Shown: positions 2,170 through 10,666 of the stretch, piece by piece
Numbering within the stretch: position 1 is the stretch's first letter
Layout of the letters: each line of letters starts with the position of its first letter
NCBI GenBank assembly: GCA_022769795.1
Contig: JALEIQ010000213.1
Coordinates: forward strand, 1 to 39,543
DNA length: 39,543 bases
From: Clostridiales bacterium
Lineage (GTDB): Bacteria; Bacillota; Clostridia; Christensenellales; Aristaeellaceae
Direction of reading: 5' to 3'
The notes under the pieces: generated by a model
Databases searched by the model: none
What the model saw: only the letters and a program-made list of their open reading frames with translations
Told to the model about the DNA's origin: nothing
Translations under genes and position numbers: made by a program

Positions 2170-3846
2170 TCACTCCACGGTGATATCCACAGGCTTGGCG
2201 CACGCAAAGGCCTGCTCAATCGCGGTGAGAATGTCGCCGTGGCCGTCGCGCAGGGCCATGGTAGCGCCGGAGATGGCGTCCATTTCGGCCTTCTGCTCAT
2301 CGGTCATGGCAGCGTACTTGGCAATGTCCTCCTCCTTCTGAGAGGTGCCATGCAGGGAACGGCCATTCAGGTCGGAGAAGCAGCTGGCAACCCACGCGGA
2401 AATCTCCTCGGTAGTCTTACCAACCATCGCGCCTTCATAAGCGGTGATTTCCTCGGCCCAGGTGCCGGAGTTCATCTTGTACTTGCTGCCCAGGTCGCGC
2501 TTGGTCTGGAAGGCGGAAATCTGCTCCGTAAAGCTTTCCTCGGTCTGGGTCCATACCTCGTCCACAGCGCCGTCAGCGTCAACATCCGCGTTGTAGCTCT
2601 GGCCCGGCCAGCCGGTGAAGGCGTTGTCGTCAGCGCCGTCATGGTTGGGGGTGATAATCTCCATCACGTCGGCAAACATGTCGACCACCTTATCCTCCGC
2701 GTCGTAGCAAACAGCGGCCACGGCGAGGTTGAAGCTGTAGCAGGGCACTTCCTTATCATCGCTGCCGGGGCCCAGGCGCGGCATCACGTTAACGCCCATG
2801 CCAACCTTGGCGATGTTCTTCACATCCCGCATGGGAATGGCGTTGTCCACAGCCTTGGCAATCGCGGCAATGATATCGCCGTGCGGGTCGGTAAGGGACA
2901 TGGTAGCGCCGGCAATCGCGTCGTTCACGGCCTTTTCCTCATCGGTAAGGGCGCTGAACTTGGCCACATCCTCCTCCTTGGTGGAGGCGGCGGTGATGGG
3001 GCGGCCGTTCACGTCGGAGCAATGCTTCTCATACCAGGCTTTGATTTCTTCCACGGTCTTGCCCTTGAAGAAGGCTTCAAAGATATCCATTTCCTGTTCC
3101 CAGGTGCCGGAGTTCATCTTGTACTCGGAGCCCTTCTGGCGCTTGGTTTTCCAGGAGAGCAGCTCCTCGGTGAAGATTTCCTCGGTTTCCTCAAGCTGGC
3201 CTTCTACAGTGCCGTCGCCATCAGCGTCGTTGTTATAGCTCTGTCCCGGCCAGCCAGCCATGAAGTTGTCGCCCTCGTTGGATTCGTCATGGTTGGGGGT
3301 GATGATCTCCAGCACGTCCACTTCCAAATCCACAATGCGCTTGTCGCTGTCAACGATGGCATAGGCAATCACTTCATTAAAGGAGTATACGCCCACGTTC
3401 TCCGCGTCGGAACCCGGGCCAAGGCGCGGGGTGGAAACAACGCCAACGCCGTGGGACAGGCCGTTGGCCGTTACGGCCATAACCTCGTCCTGCGCGGGGG
3501 CGGCTTCCTCAACGCCCATGGCGTTGCGCACGGCGGCAAATACGCCGTTGGAAGTCCAGGTGGCGCCAGCCACGCCGTCCACACCGTCCACGGTACCGGC
3601 GGCCACAATCGTTTCCATCAGGGTCTCCAGAGCGGCTCCGCCAATAGCGGGCGTTTCCCCTTCGCCGGTAAGCAGCAGGCCGGTAATCGCGCCGTCCTCA
3701 ACGCTCACCGTGGCCTTGATGGCTCCGCCGTATCCCTCCGCCTCGCCGGTCAGGGTTTCGCACAGGCCCACGGTCATCGTGCAAAACGCCATTACAAGCG
3801 CCAGGCTCAGTGCAATCAGGCTTTTCCTAAGATGCGTTTTTTTCAC
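2170..3846 (-). CDS. Secreted FMN-binding-domain protein with a duplicated ~220-aa C-terminal module
   Basis: Signal peptide MKKTHLRKSLIALSLALVMAFCTMTVGLC; N-terminal FMN_bind-like domain ending DGVAGATWTSNGVFAAV; two repeated modules sharing PRLGPGSD, EIITPNHD, GWPGQSYN, YKMNSGTW, DAI(A/S)GATM. Confidence 0.85.
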   Translation of the reverse strand: MKKTHLRKSLIALSLALVMAFCTMTVGLCETLTGEAEGYGGAIKATVSVEDGAITGLLLTGEGETPAIGGAALETLMETIVAAGTVDGVDGVAGATWTSNGVFAAVRNAMGVEEAAPAQDEVMAVTANGLSHGVGVVSTPRLGPGSDAENVGVYSFNEVIAYAIVDSDKRIVDLEVDVLEIITPNHDESNEGDNFMAGWPGQSYNNDADGDGTVEGQLEETEEIFTEELLSWKTKRQKGSEYKMNSGTWEQEMDIFEAFFKGKTVEEIKAWYEKHCSDVNGRPITAASTKEEDVAKFSALTDEEKAVNDAIAGATMSLTDPHGDIIAAIAKAVDNAIPMRDVKNIAKVGMGVNVMPRLGPGSDDKEVPCYSFNLAVAAVCYDAEDKVVDMFADVMEIITPNHDGADDNAFTGWPGQSYNADVDADGAVDEVWTQTEESFTEQISAFQTKRDLGSKYKMNSGTWAEEITAYEGAMVGKTTEEISAWVASCFSDLNGRSLHGTSQKEEDIAKYAAMTDEQKAEMDAISGATMALRDGHGDILTAIEQAFACAKPVDITVE

Positions 3847-4141: not shown

Positions 4142-5206
4142 ATGAAGAAACTGATGGCTTTGTTCCTGGCAATGGTTCTGGTTCTTTCCCTGTGCGTTGG
4201 CGCTACCGCCGAATCCGAGAAGAAGTACACGGTAGGCTTCTCGAATGTTTGGGTGGGCAACACCTATGGCATTCAGGGCGTTAACGAGCTGGAAGCCTTC
4301 CTCAAGGACAACCCGCAGGTGGAAAAGTACTATATCTACAACGCCGATAACGACGTTAACAAGCAGATCTCCGATATCGAGGATCTGATCGCCAAGGGCG
4401 TGGATATGCTGATTCTGCAGCCCATCTCCGCCGAGTCGGTCGCGGCTGTGGTAGAGGAAGCGTATGACGCGGGCATCGTGGTGGTGGACTGCACCTCTCC
4501 TCTGGCAGATGCCACGGACGCGTATCATGTATCCGTGATCGCCAAGGATTATGACTTTGGCTACACCGGCATGAAGTGGCTGTGCGAGCAGATCGGCGGC
4601 AAGGGCAACGTGATTTGCCTGGACGGCATGGCCGGTCTTTCCAGCGCCGTGCTGCGCATGGAAGGCGCTCAGGACGCCCTGAAGGAGTACCCGGACGTGA
4701 AGATCATCGCCAGCGAGTACGCCAACTGGGATTACGCCACCGCCAAGCCCATTGTGGAAAACATGCTGGCCACCTACGACCAGATCGACGCGGTTTGGTC
4801 CTCCGGCGGCGATATGACCCGTGCCGCTATCGAGGCGTGGGCCGAGGCTGGCCGTCCCTGGGTGCCCATGATGGGCGAGGACTGCAACGGCTTCCTCAAG
4901 CTGTGGAGCAAGTACAAGGCTGACGGCCTTAGCTGCATCGCGGTTTCGCTGCCCACCTGGCTGTTCGCCTACGGCGCCGAGCTGGGCCTTGAGATTCTCA
5001 ACGGCACCTACACCGGCGAAAAGGACGTTATCATCGAGATTCCTTCCTTCGGCAACGACGAGGTTGATTCCTACGTGCGCGAGGATCTCTCCGACAGCTT
5101 CTGGGGCCAGACCCATATGACCGAGGAGCAGATTGTGGCCCTGTACGGCAACGGCAACGACGGTTCTCAGGGCATCACCGGCGGCGGCGCGGCCTCTGAC
5201 CACTAA
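4142..5206 (+). CDS. Sugar ABC transporter substrate-binding protein (RbsB-like, periplasmic-binding protein type 1)
   Basis: Signal peptide; KYTVGFSNVWVGNTYGIQGVNELEAF...ADNDVNKQISDIEDLIAKGVDMLILQPISAESV; followed by ATPase and two permeases. Confidence 0.92.
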   Translation: MKKLMALFLAMVLVLSLCVGATAESEKKYTVGFSNVWVGNTYGIQGVNELEAFLKDNPQVEKYYIYNADNDVNKQISDIEDLIAKGVDMLILQPISAESVAAVVEEAYDAGIVVVDCTSPLADATDAYHVSVIAKDYDFGYTGMKWLCEQIGGKGNVICLDGMAGLSSAVLRMEGAQDALKEYPDVKIIASEYANWDYATAKPIVENMLATYDQIDAVWSSGGDMTRAAIEAWAEAGRPWVPMMGEDCNGFLKLWSKYKADGLSCIAVSLPTWLFAYGAELGLEILNGTYTGEKDVIIEIPSFGNDEVDSYVREDLSDSFWGQTHMTEEQIVALYGNGNDGSQGITGGGAASDH

Positions 5207-5262
5207 GCCTTCGTGTCCCGTCGGGAGCCTTGTCCTCCTGAGAAGGAACCCGGCATATAACC

Positions 5263-5295
5263 AGAAAGGTGGGAAGCCCGGCTTCTCACCTTTCT
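5263..5295 (+). terminator. Intercistronic hairpin between SBP and ATPase (attenuator or mRNA-stability element)
   Basis: agaaaggtgggaagc-ccg-gcttctcacctttct, 15-bp stem with one G-U. Confidence 0.6.
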
Positions 5296-5321
5296 TTCCA
5301 TCATGAAAGGGACTGACCACC

Positions 5322-6818
5322 GTGGAAAACCTATATCTAAAAATGAGCGGAATTACCAAGCAGTTCCCGGGCGTGAAAGCGCTGGACGGCGTGGATTTCG
5401 ACCTCAAAAAGGGCGAGATACACGCGCTTGTGGGCGAAAACGGCGCGGGTAAATCCACGCTGATGAACATGCTGGGCGGCAATCTCAAGCCCGACAGCGG
5501 CATGATCGAGCTGGAAGGCAAGCGTGTGAGCATTTCCGGCCCCATGGAATCGCTTGAGCTGGGCATTGGGTTTGTGCACCAGGAGTCCAACCTGCTTTCC
5601 AACCTCACGGTGCTGGAAAACGTGTTCCTCGCGCGTGAAAAGCGCAGGCACGGCACGCTGGACCGCGCGGCCATGCGCAAGGAAATTCTGCGCGTAAACG
5701 AGCGCCTGGGCTATCAACTCAACCCCGACGCGCAGGTGGGCAGCCTGCACCTGGCCGAGCAGCAGTGTGTGGAAATCACCCGCGCGCTGCTGTCCGAGCC
5801 CCGCATCCTTATCCTGGACGAGCCCACCGCCGCCCTGGACGACAGCGAGGTAGCGCGCCTGTTTGATATCGTGCGCCGCCTGCGCGGGGAGGGCGTGGCT
5901 ATCATCTATATCTCCCACCGTCTGGACGAGATTTTCCAGCTGGCCGACCGCATCACCGTGCTCAAGGACGGAAAGGTTGTTGGCACGCGCGCCACCGGGG
6001 AGGTTACCAAGGACGAGGTCATCGCCATGATGGTGGGCCGCGTGCTGGAGGATATCTACCCCAAGCGCGACGATATCACCTTCGGCGATACGCTGCTCAG
6101 CGTGGAAAACCTGAGCATTCCCGGCAGGCTGAGCAACGTGAGCTTCAGCGTGCGCGCGGGCGAAATCGTGGGTCTGGGCGGCCTGGAGGGCCAGGGCCAG
6201 CGCGACGCGGCGCGCGCCATCTTTGGCGACGTGCCCTTTGCGCAGGGCCGCATTACCGCAAACGGCCTGGAGCTGAAAAGCCGCGGCATCCGGGGCCGTA
6301 TCCGGCGCGGCGTGGGCTATGTAACGCACGACCGCCGGGGCGAGGGCCTGGTGCTGAACGAATCCGTGCGCAAAAACGCGGCGCTGGCTTCATTGTACCG
6401 GCGCAGCAGGCTTGGCTTTGTGGACGCCGCCGCCGAAAGGCGCGAGGCGGACGAGAATGTGGAGCGCATGCAAATCAAAACCGCGGGCCTGGAGCAGAAG
6501 GTCGCCAACCTGTCGGGCGGCAACCAGCAAAAGGTCATGCTCGCCCGCTGGCTGATGACCAAGCCGCGCGTGCTCATCATTGACGAGCCCACCAAGGGCG
6601 TGGACGTGGGCGCGCGCATGTCGGTATACCAAATCATCGATCAATTAACACGCGAGGGCATCGGCATCATCATGCTCACCAGCGATATGATGGAGCTAAT
6701 CGGCCTAAGCGACCGCGTGCTGGTGTTCTACGAGGGCCGCATCAGCCGGGAGCTCAAGCGCGGCGAGGCCACGGAGGAGCGCATCATGCGCGCCGCCAGC
6801 AGCATGCCGGACGAGTGA
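5322..6818 (+). CDS. Sugar ABC transporter ATP-binding protein, duplicated ATPase (RbsA-like)
   Basis: Two ABC domains: GENGAGKSTLMN, ILDEPTAALDD, LSGGNQQKVMLARWL, IIDEPTKGVDVGA; GTG start. Confidence 0.95.
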   Translation: MENLYLKMSGITKQFPGVKALDGVDFDLKKGEIHALVGENGAGKSTLMNMLGGNLKPDSGMIELEGKRVSISGPMESLELGIGFVHQESNLLSNLTVLENVFLAREKRRHGTLDRAAMRKEILRVNERLGYQLNPDAQVGSLHLAEQQCVEITRALLSEPRILILDEPTAALDDSEVARLFDIVRRLRGEGVAIIYISHRLDEIFQLADRITVLKDGKVVGTRATGEVTKDEVIAMMVGRVLEDIYPKRDDITFGDTLLSVENLSIPGRLSNVSFSVRAGEIVGLGGLEGQGQRDAARAIFGDVPFAQGRITANGLELKSRGIRGRIRRGVGYVTHDRRGEGLVLNESVRKNAALASLYRRSRLGFVDAAAERREADENVERMQIKTAGLEQKVANLSGGNQQKVMLARWLMTKPRVLIIDEPTKGVDVGARMSVYQIIDQLTREGIGIIMLTSDMMELIGLSDRVLVFYEGRISRELKRGEATEERIMRAASSMPDE

Positions 6819-6819
6819 G

Positions 6820-7794
6820 GTGCTGAGGATGAAAACAAAAAAGCTGAACCAGCAGGTTCGCGGCGTTTTAACCATTTACCTGCTGCTGATTCTGGTATTC
6901 ATTGGGATGTGTATCTCCTCGGAATCCTTCCGATCCCTGTATAACATCACCAATCTGCTCACCCAATGCGTGCCGTTGGCCTGCGTCGCCATGGGGCAAA
7001 CGCTGGTTATCATCTCCGGCGGCATTGATTTGAGCGTGGGCTCGGCCATCAGCGTATGCACGGCCGTGGCGGCCAAGCTGCTCAACACCGATAATCCCGC
7101 GCAGATTGCCTTCGGCGCGGCGGCGGTTGTGCTCACCGGCGTTGTTGTGGGCGCGGTAAACGGCCTGGGCATCAATATGCTCAAGGTGCCGCCGCTGATT
7201 ACCACGCTTTGCACAAGCACGGCGTTAAGCGGCGTGGCGCTGTGGATACTGCCCATGGCGGGCGGCAAAATCAACCGCGTGTTCGCCCGCTTTGTGTATC
7301 AAAAGTGGACCATCGTTTCCATGCCGCTGCTTATCATGCTGGCGCTGTTCCTGATTATGCGCACGGTGCTGTACCACACGCGCACGGGCGTGGATATCTA
7401 CGCCATCGGGCGCGACAGGCGCATTGCGAGCACCATGGGCGTGGACGCGCGCCGCACCAGCATAAAAACCTATCTGCTCTGCGGCCTGTGCGCAGGGCTG
7501 ACGGGGCTGCTGCTGGCCTGCCGCATGCGCGTGGGCGACCCCACCTGCGGCACGGCCTACTCCATGGATTCCATCACCGCGTCGGTTGTGGGCGGCGCTT
7601 CCATGGCGGGCGGCGTTGGCCTGCTTTCCGGCACCATCGCGGGCGCTTTCCTGATCGGCATGCTTTCCAACATCATGAACAACCTGGCCGTAAACCAATT
7701 TTACCAATACGTGCTCAAGGGCGGCCTGCTGGTGGTAGCCATGATCGTGTACTCGATTTCCAACCTTCTGGAGGTGAAGCGCCATGAAAAATAA
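6820..7794 (+). CDS. ABC sugar permease (RbsC/BPD_transp_2 family)
   Basis: Multi-TM; GQTLVIISGGIDLSVGSAIS motif. Confidence 0.93.
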   Translation: MLRMKTKKLNQQVRGVLTIYLLLILVFIGMCISSESFRSLYNITNLLTQCVPLACVAMGQTLVIISGGIDLSVGSAISVCTAVAAKLLNTDNPAQIAFGAAAVVLTGVVVGAVNGLGINMLKVPPLITTLCTSTALSGVALWILPMAGGKINRVFARFVYQKWTIVSMPLLIMLALFLIMRTVLYHTRTGVDIYAIGRDRRIASTMGVDARRTSIKTYLLCGLCAGLTGLLLACRMRVGDPTCGTAYSMDSITASVVGGASMAGGVGLLSGTIAGAFLIGMLSNIMNNLAVNQFYQYVLKGGLLVVAMIVYSISNLLEVKRHEK

Positions 7795-8737
7795 CGGCCT
7801 GAGGCGCTCCTCAAACGCCTCCATGCAGCCGCTGTTCCTGCTGGGCATCATCGCGGTGATGATCGCCATGCAGGCCATCCTGGTGCCCGGCTCCGTAACA
7901 TCCAGCCAGCTTTGGCTGGTGTCGCGGCAGGCCTCCGCGCTGGGCATTATCGCCCTGGGGCAGGCGGCGGTCATCCTTGTGGGCGGCATCGACCTTAGCG
8001 TGGGCTCCATCGTAATGATCACCAACGTTTTCTGCATCGCCCTGATGCGCGGCTCCAACCAGTATGTGCTGGGCGGGCTGGCCGTCTGCCTGCTGATTGC
8101 GCTGGTGATTGGCGCAAGCAACGCCCTTGGCGTGCTGGTGCTCAACATCGCTCCCTTCGTAATGACGCTTTGCACCATGACCATCCTTCAGGGCGTGTGC
8201 TATGTGTACACCCAGGGCGCGCCCACCGGCAGCGCCGCGCCCGTAATCAACGCGCTTGGCACCGGCTATCTTGGGCCCATACCCTATTCCACCGTCATCT
8301 GGCTGGTGCTGGCGCTGCTTACCTGGATTGTGCTCAGGTTTACCACGCTGGGCCGCAAGGTATACGCCGTGGGTGGAAACGCGCGGGCCGCGCGCCTCAG
8401 CGGCGTAAGCAACAAAGCCGTGATCGCGGCGGCCTATATCTTCTCCGCCATCATGTCTATGATCGCGGGGGTGATTATGTCCGGCTACCTCAACATTACC
8501 TCCCTTACCGTGGGCGGCGATTATGTAAACAATTCGCTGGCGGCTGTGCTCATTGGCGGCAACGCCATTGAGGGCGGACGCGGCGGCATATGGGGCGTGG
8601 TGCTGGGCGCGTTCTTTATGACGTTCCTCATGGCCATTCTCACCATGATCGGCATTGGCGAGGTTGGCAAGCTTATTGTGCAGGGATTGGTTATTTTCGT
8701 CGTGGTGGCGATGCAGAGCATGATGAAAAAGGACTAA
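7784..8737 (+). CDS. ABC sugar permease (RbsC/BPD_transp_2 family), second subunit
   Basis: GQAAVILVGGIDLSVGSIVM...YAVGGNARAARLSGV; overlaps the previous permease gene. Confidence 0.93.
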   Translation: MKNNGLRRSSNASMQPLFLLGIIAVMIAMQAILVPGSVTSSQLWLVSRQASALGIIALGQAAVILVGGIDLSVGSIVMITNVFCIALMRGSNQYVLGGLAVCLLIALVIGASNALGVLVLNIAPFVMTLCTMTILQGVCYVYTQGAPTGSAAPVINALGTGYLGPIPYSTVIWLVLALLTWIVLRFTTLGRKVYAVGGNARAARLSGVSNKAVIAAAYIFSAIMSMIAGVIMSGYLNITSLTVGGDYVNNSLAAVLIGGNAIEGGRGGIWGVVLGAFFMTFLMAILTMIGIGEVGKLIVQGLVIFVVVAMQSMMKKD

Positions 8738-8749
8738 GGAGGCGAAAGC

Positions 8750-9622
8750 ATGAACATAGGCGTAAACCAATTTTGTTTCCCCATGACGTACGACGTGCGC
8801 GACGCCATTGCCGCCGCCAAGCGTCTGGGCTTTGACAGCATCGAGGTATGCTTTACCGCAGCGGACGGCGCGCGCCCCGGCGGCGGCGTAACCGACGCGC
8901 TGGACATCAGCGGCTATCACAACCGCCTGCTGAACATGAGCTCCACCAAGAGCGACCTAAAGGAGCTGCGCGCCATCGCCGGGGATAACGGAATCCGCAT
9001 TTCCAGCGTGGGCGGCATTGTGAGCTTCTCCATCTATCCTCTTACATCCACGGACCCGTCCGTGGCGGAAAAGAGCATGGACGCGGTAAAGAAGATGCTG
9101 GACGCGGCGCGCGAGCTGGGCGCGGATACCGTGCTGGTGATTCCCGGCATGCTCACCGCCGGCATGCGCTACGAGGCCGCCTACGACCTGGCGCAGCAGC
9201 GCGTGGCCGAGCTTGCGGCCTATGCCCCGGACATCCAGTTGGCGATTGAGAACGTATGGAACGGCATGCTTTACAGCCCGCTGGAAATGAGCCGCTTTGT
9301 GGACGGCACCGGCTGCGCCAATGTGGGCGTGTACTTCGATATTGCCAACGCCCGCCGCTTTGGCTGGCCTGAGCAATGGATACGCACGCTTGGCAAGCGC
9401 ATACGCAAGTTCCACTGCAAGGATTACCGCATGTCGGTGGACACCATCAACGGCTTTACCAACATTCTGGACGGCGATGTGGACTGGCCCGCGGTAATCG
9501 CGGCCATCCGGGAAACCGGCTACGACGGCGACCTGGTTGTGGAGCTGGTGCCGCCCGCCCATTACCTGGTGGAAAATACGCTTTCCTACGCGCAGGCAAC
9601 CCTGAAAACTCTGCTGAAATAA
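8750..9622 (+). CDS. Sugar phosphate isomerase/epimerase (AP endonuclease 2-like TIM barrel)
   Basis: MNIGVNQFCFP...LGFDSIEVCF...IAIENVWNGM-like and VGVYFDIANARRFGWPEQWI, KFHCKDY motifs. Confidence 0.85.
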   Translation: MNIGVNQFCFPMTYDVRDAIAAAKRLGFDSIEVCFTAADGARPGGGVTDALDISGYHNRLLNMSSTKSDLKELRAIAGDNGIRISSVGGIVSFSIYPLTSTDPSVAEKSMDAVKKMLDAARELGADTVLVIPGMLTAGMRYEAAYDLAQQRVAELAAYAPDIQLAIENVWNGMLYSPLEMSRFVDGTGCANVGVYFDIANARRFGWPEQWIRTLGKRIRKFHCKDYRMSVDTINGFTNILDGDVDWPAVIAAIRETGYDGDLVVELVPPAHYLVENTLSYAQATLKTLLK

Positions 9623-9643
9623 TATAGAAAGGGAGATTCAACA

Positions 9644-10666
9644 ATGAAAAAGTATGGCGTTATGATCGTGGGCACTGGCTGGGTATCCGGCGAACACATC
9701 CGGGCATTTGAAATGAACGAGCACGCTGAGGTGGTAGCCATCGTATCGCGCAGCTATGAAAAGGGCCGCTCCAAGGCGGACGAGTACAACCTGGGCGAGC
9801 GCTGCAAAATCTATACCGATTATGACGAGGGCCTCAAGGACCCCAATGTGGATATCGTGGTTATCTGCACGCCCAACAACCTGCATTGCGAGCAGACCAT
9901 CAAGGCCGCCAAGGCGCACAAGCATATCCTGCTTGAGAAGCCCGTCGCCCTTAGCTGGGAGGATACCCTGCGCATGGACGAGGCCGTGCGCGAGGCGGGG
10001 GTGAAAACCCTGGTGGGCTACGTGCTGCACTACAACCCGCTGTTCATGACGGCCAAAAAGCTGCAAAAGGACTTTATCGGCAAGCTGACCTATGCCGAAA
10101 CCGATTACTTCCATCGCGTAATGAGCGATATTCCCTGCTATGAGTGGACCTGCAAAAAGAGCGTGGGCGGCAGCTCCCTGCTGGCGGGCGGCTGCCATGC
10201 CGTGGACGCGATGCGCTGGTTCATGCAGGACGAGGTGGTAAGCGTATACGCCCAGAGCAGCAAAATGCGCACCGACCTGGAGTTTGACGGCACCATCGCC
10301 ATCATCCTCAAGTTTAAGAACGGCGCCGTAGCCAAGGTAGGCTCCAGCTATGATTTCATCAGCCCCTATGTGTTTAACCTGCACCTGTGCGGCGATAAGG
10401 GCACCCTGTGGAACGACAAGCTGTGGTCGCCCGGCATGATTCCCGAGCAGCGCGACTACATGCAGCTTCCCGTGCTCACCCCCAACAGCGGCGATGTGAA
10501 GCATCATCCCTTCCCCGAGGAGGTTGAGCACTTCATGGACTGCATCGTAAACGACAAGCCGACGGACTGCCCCCTTAGCGACGCGGTCAAGACCCAGGAG
10601 ATCGTGTTCGCGGCCGATTTGAGCGCCGCGACCGGCGAGGTTGTGCATCTGCCCCTGAAGCGTTAA
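9644..10666 (+). CDS. Gfo/Idh/MocA family oxidoreductase
   Basis: N-terminal Rossmann GVMIVGTGWVSGEHIRAF, CTPNNLHCEQTIKAAKAHKHILLEKPVAL (EKP motif). Confidence 0.95.
   Translation: MKKYGVMIVGTGWVSGEHIRAFEMNEHAEVVAIVSRSYEKGRSKADEYNLGERCKIYTDYDEGLKDPNVDIVVICTPNNLHCEQTIKAAKAHKHILLEKPVALSWEDTLRMDEAVREAGVKTLVGYVLHYNPLFMTAKKLQKDFIGKLTYAETDYFHRVMSDIPCYEWTCKKSVGGSSLLAGGCHAVDAMRWFMQDEVVSVYAQSSKMRTDLEFDGTIAIILKFKNGAVAKVGSSYDFISPYVFNLHLCGDKGTLWNDKLWSPGMIPEQRDYMQLPVLTPNSGDVKHHPFPEEVEHFMDCIVNDKPTDCPLSDAVKTQEIVFAADLSAATGEVVHLPLKR

Follow-up and report, generated by a model that had tools for sequence, protein, structure and literature searches.

A secreted Clostridiales protein joining an FMN_bind domain to two large FMN-bind2-like modules: a candidate three-flavin electron carrier

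The window analyzed in this study, a stretch of 39,543 nucleotides from a Clostridiales bacterium (GenBank assembly GCA_022769795.1, contig JALEIQ010000213.1), encodes a 558-residue protein whose features are collected in Table 1. The reading frame is open and begins with a GTG start codon, and the N-terminus is hydrophobic and lysine-rich; in related proteins the signal-peptide region ends at AxA-like sites (e.g., GMA/ETL and SLA/EDG). No lipobox, transmembrane segment or wall anchor was seen in the protein sequence. The N-terminal domain scored 52 bits against the Pfam profile PF04205, above the cut-off of 22 bits, and was matched by phmmer to the solved FMN4 domain 8p2b; on these matches it is a canonical member of FMN_bind. 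The remainder of the protein is largely made up of two modules of approximately 205 residues that repeat with a period of 216 residues and share 54% identity across 200 residues (E 3e-77). An earlier sequence-only reading had described a signal peptide and an FMN_bind-like domain followed by a duplicated module, a layout confirmed by the open reading frame, the PF04205 match and the alignment of the two modules. Elsewhere in the window, positions 4142-10666 of the plus strand encode a sugar-type ABC transporter (Peripla_BP_4, ATPase and two permeases) and, after it, a xylose-isomerase-like TIM barrel and a MocA-type oxidoreductase.

Table 1. Features of the gene and its product, with positions in the window
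Feature	Position	Strand	Evidence
Whole gene, FMN_bind and two-module secreted protein, 558 aa	2170..3846	minus	Open ORF; PF04205; same-architecture orthologues L033-L037, L039; L038 with two FMN_bind
Signal peptide, residues 1-28, cleavage boundary by eye	3763..3846	minus	Sequence; AxA-like ends in relatives
Canonical FMN_bind (FMN-bind1) domain, residues 38-110	3517..3735	minus	PF04205 E 1.2e-13; phmmer 8p2b E 8e-9
Flavinylation motif 1, DGVAGAT, Thr96	3559..3579	minus	Shuffle test; alignment with 20 other FMN_bind domains of own genome
Module 1, large FMN-bind2-like domain, residues 129-335	2842..3462	minus	Module alignments; AF2 pLDDT 88.9
DxDxDG loop of module 1, NNDADGDG, possible Ca2+ site inferred from sequence	3211..3234	minus	Sequence; D79, D83
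Candidate flavinylation motif 2, DAIAGAT, Thr315, loop preceding C-terminal helix	2902..2922	minus	AF2 model, family alignment, shuffles
Module 2, large FMN-bind2-like domain, residues 345-549	2200..2814	minus	Module alignments; tandem model pTM 0.90
DxDxDG loop of module 2, NADVDADG, possible Ca2+ site (inferred)	2569..2592	minus	Sequence
Candidate flavinylation motif 3, DAISGAT, Thr529	2260..2280	minus	Family alignment, tandem model, shuffles

Scanning a single genome for each species identified seven relatives, all in metagenome-assembled genomes titled Clostridia, Clostridiales or Eubacteriales, several of them from the ruminant gut. Six have the same architecture and one, L038, has a second FMN_bind domain; their common order is a signal or anchor, FMN_bind, module 1 and module 2. 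An assembly artefact joining two genes was excluded, since these relatives show the same domain order in seven other genomes.

A GAT motif had been noted in the FMN_bind-like domain and at the end of each module copy, and all three units indeed end in Dxx[SA]GAT at those places; the coordinates originally given are those of the seven-residue motifs, while the ten-residue strings quoted with them are longer than the coordinates. Composition-preserving shuffling of the protein yielded one D..[STA]GAT in 192 of 20,000 shuffles and never two or more, and a chance origin for the three was rejected on this count. Motif 1 fits the pattern Dxx[S/T]GA[S/T] except for alanine at position 4, as in other FMN_bind domains of the genome, and D53 and T59 are invariant when its domain is aligned with 20 other FMN_bind domains from the same genome. 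One covalent FMN on the N-terminal domain is very likely. In two further FMN_bind domains of this genome, belonging to likely secreted reductases, SGAT is replaced by SSAT and AGST (L057:5611-5829 and L057:8626-8841).

Alignment of 16 modules (mean column identity 71%) showed R13, G15, P16, G17, D19, T55, P56, N57, D59, Y114, K115, N152, G153 and R154 to be invariant, and the conserved blocks named in the sequence-only reading are therefore real. D79 and D83, which lie in the DxDxDG loops, are likewise invariant in these 16 modules of two-module family members, and the loops are absent from the aligned single-module relatives; it is possible, judging from the residues, that they are Ca2+ sites. 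Within the motif, D181, A186, T187 and M188 are invariant and G185 is variable: module 2 of both L033 and L034 reads STAT, and module 1 of L034 reads SCAT. Outside this alignment, the large module of L118 reads AKAT.

Module 1 gave a confident AlphaFold model (pLDDT 88.9, pTM 0.85) that opens with a three-strand meander (strands 3-18, 24-37 and 43-54), after which come an insert and helices. The structure prediction suggested by the sequence-only reading thus puts the motif in a loop ahead of the last helix. The tandem pair was modelled with a pLDDT of 87.5 and a pTM of 0.90, a value which indicates that the two modules pack in a defined manner, and the pair is predicted to be one rigid pseudo-symmetric unit. 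Foldseek searches of the PDB with the module and with the tandem pair returned no hit with E<=0.001, and none of the hits listed was an FMN_bind structure.

Profile searches gave neither the modules nor the pairs of a smaller related form (described below) any Pfam or NCBIfam family name, and the module profile had no match among PDB sequences. Against PF04205 the modules fell below the cut-off (best family member E 0.0048, with no window module above). A profile-profile comparison by hhalign joined the module to FMN_bind over 31 columns (E 3e-5), covering the motif and last helix only. The sequence-only reading had suggested searching for the module outside FMN_bind proteins; the module profile picked up single-module proteins from a different family of the class and, as weak matches, two-domain lipoproteins of approximately 370-390 residues. 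With a profile built from the modules and these wider relatives, the family was detected in 44 of the 399 genomes sampled from the phylum. The resulting tree splits, at 100/100, a large form of 25 rows, among them the window modules, from a small form of 45 rows; the single-module proteins branch first inside the large form, in the tree as drawn, and the FMN_bind-fused proteins cluster at 91/81, including the one-module L117 and L118. Small-form domains measure approximately 155-165 residues and are paired, while the large module is paired in the window protein and single in several relatives.

The motif was also followed across both forms, with counts taken by eye from the domain list after removal of duplicates. 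Large modules carry Dxx[STA]xAT[MI], with Thr and Ala present in every one; the equivalent of G185 is kept in 20 of 26 and replaced by T, C, K or S in the other six (L033, L034 twice, L117, L118 and L141). The small-form motif is [DE]xx[SA]xVT, with Gly in none of the domains. Conservation of GAT among homologues, set by the sequence-only reading as a test of its proposal, is thus partial: the D, the A or V and the T are retained, but the Gly is not. Wherever a motif could be read, its Thr is retained (L147, a partial match, gave no readable motif). Because these motifs were read by searching for a Thr-containing pattern, the alignment of 20 diverse modules serves as the unbiased test of Thr conservation; only eight of its columns are invariant, and T187 is among them. 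Mutagenesis of the ApbE motif is reported to show that changing Thr to Ala abolishes flavinylation, while approximately 50% is left after changing Gly to Ala or Ala to Val (PMC12052999, a 2025 review). The natural variation therefore falls where ApbE is reported to be tolerant, with Lys, Thr, Cys, Ser and Leu at the Gly position lying outside the published data.

Published work divides FMN-bind domains into FMN-bind1, of approximately 120 residues, and FMN-bind2, of approximately 160 residues (mSystems 2024, PMC11334425; preprint PMC10979944), the latter having inserts that separate strand 1 from strand 2 and strand 3 from helix 1, even copy numbers and predicted face-to-face pairs (PMC11334425). 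The small form fits FMN-bind2 in length, pairing and apbE linkage, and the window modules fit an enlarged form of it; the published example was compared by description only, so both assignments rest on that description. Judged against the published text, the module model has inserts after strands 1 and 3, and the tandem pairing seen in the window protein, the predicted pseudo-symmetric pair and the association with ApbE are further points of likeness. The window modules differ from published FMN-bind2 in their greater length, extra inserts, DxDxDG loops, fusion to FMN_bind and lack of a Pfam match. Compared to FMN-bind1 (PF04205; NqrC, RnfG and PplA), to which the N-terminal domain belongs, the modules have the motif loop and the helix after it in common but are nearly three times longer and under the Pfam cut-off. 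The modules represent the large form of a Bacillota family of FMN-bind2-like domains that is linked to apbE. The proposal that they constitute a distinct flavin-carrying domain holds in that they are distinct from Pfam FMN_bind, but they are not an isolated new domain, and the idea of a wholly new one was abandoned once the published FMN-bind2 description matched the family. Multi-flavinylated extracytosolic proteins are known, mostly as FMN-bind1 repeats (eLife 2021, PMC8238504; BBA Adv 2023, PMC10339131). The window protein resembles them in having several flavinylation sites, here candidates, on one exported chain, and differs from those repeats in joining one FMN-bind1 to two FMN-bind2-like modules. 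What is new here is a secreted FMN-bind1 protein carrying two large FMN-bind2-like modules, while the kind of domain itself was recently described.

The family's genomic distribution is closely tied to apbE, which was found in all 44 genomes with the family versus 267 of 399 overall (Fisher p 6e-9, a value to be taken as a guide since the genomes are kin). In 17 of the 22 loci fetched, and likewise in L118, a small-form pair precedes apbE on the same strand by 0-160 bp; by coordinates, approximately 35 of 40 small-form genomes have the pair adjacent to apbE, with three of the five exceptions at contig ends. Linkage of the large form to apbE is weaker than that of the small form. Its linked cases are L118, where a gene with FMN_bind and a large module, a small-form pair and apbE are collinear, and L119, where a collinear cluster runs NusG_II, apbE, Hpre_diP_synt_I, a CbiQ-like gene and then a single-module large-form lipoprotein (L119:2337-6417). 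Other large-form genes in the fetched loci are not close to apbE, and the majority of single large modules are far from it. The window gene is not near apbE either, and the genes around it and around its close relatives are not conserved and point to no partner; the earlier remark that the window lacks apbE is correct but uninformative.

A search of the source genome for apbE and Rnf partners, as the sequence-only reading had recommended, returned two apbE genes and RnfD, together with 22 FMN_bind domains. One apbE gene (C313) directly follows a gene for a 774-residue protein anchored in the membrane at its N-terminus and carrying six FMN_bind domains (L060:4613-8042), which appears RnfG-like by eye. 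In a quick midpoint-rooted tree, its supports not read, the C313 ApbE is sister to the ApbE clade linked with small-form pairs. Four other FMN_bind proteins run on into sequence that by eye resembles FAD-binding reductases.

The best single explanation of these results, and one we consider probable, is that the window protein is a secreted three-flavin electron carrier modified by ApbE. Since one flavin domain is accompanied by two large relatives of it, up to three flavins are possible. The protein would be exported as a soluble carrier and modified by the cell's own ApbE, which would join FMN to Thr96 through a phosphoester bond and most probably do the same at Thr315 and Thr529. The module pair, predicted to be rigid, and the FMN_bind domain would then give each secreted chain as many as three flavin centres of one or two electrons. 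With low confidence, electrons could be supplied from membrane Rnf through the membrane-anchored six-FMN_bind protein beside apbE, and could pass, again with low confidence, to acceptors outside the cell or to the many FMN_bind/FAD reductases of the genome. The two further covalent FMNs on the modules are plausible: they are favoured by the conservation of the motif Thr and the linkage of the family to apbE, and weakened by the variability of the Gly and the absence of a PDB fold match. A broader proposition is offered more tentatively, namely that the diverged motif [DE]xx[ST]x[AV]T is a natural target of ApbE in a large family that is linked to apbE and lies outside Pfam, which would make the window protein a three-flavin carrier built from two types of flavin domain.

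There are several alternatives to this reading. It is possible, though rather unlikely, that FMN is carried by the N-terminal domain alone and that the modules descend from FMN-bind2 without covalent flavin, their Thr being structural and the pair serving as a scaffold, ligand-binding or docking unit. The motif Gly is not kept in close relatives, including both L034 modules, single-module proteins mostly do not adjoin apbE, and the DxDxDG loops and other conserved blocks hint at further roles; however, Thr and Ala occur in every large module, the family is restricted to apbE genomes, ApbE tolerates changes at the Gly (PMC12052999), and the AKAT module of L118 sits in an apbE cluster. It is improbable that the modules instead hold flavin or another redox cofactor non-covalently, with the conserved Thr touching the FMN phosphate. 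One flavoprotein fold does have covalent and non-covalent forms (PMC11334425/PMC10979944), and the invariant K107, Y114 and W121 could line a flavin pocket, but no finding demands this arrangement and the apbE linkage favours covalent attachment. Least credible is that the modules have no relation to FMN_bind and that coincidence or convergence produced the three GAT motifs, since, despite the lack of any Pfam hit above cut-off or PDB fold match, shuffles never give two motifs, the motif stands in the same place ahead of the last helix in all relatives, and both the profile link to FMN_bind and the apbE linkage speak for kinship.

The FMN_bind domain and the GAT motif are markers for counting flavinylated proteins in genomes. 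The Pfam model misses the module and its small-form relatives, and the GAT motif also misses the small form, which adjoins apbE across many Bacillota families. If the family is flavinylated, counts of extracellular flavin electron transfer would fall short for gut and anaerobic bacteria, and the accepted ApbE motif would be too narrow. Small-form pairs, which are lipoproteins, with [DE]xxSxVT directly upstream of apbE were seen in many Bacillota families (L117, L118, L122, L124-L130, L132, L134-L136 and L143-L146); this sequence is a candidate for a widened ApbE motif. In L144 and L145, the small-form pair is followed by two different apbE genes in a row, from two ApbE clades.
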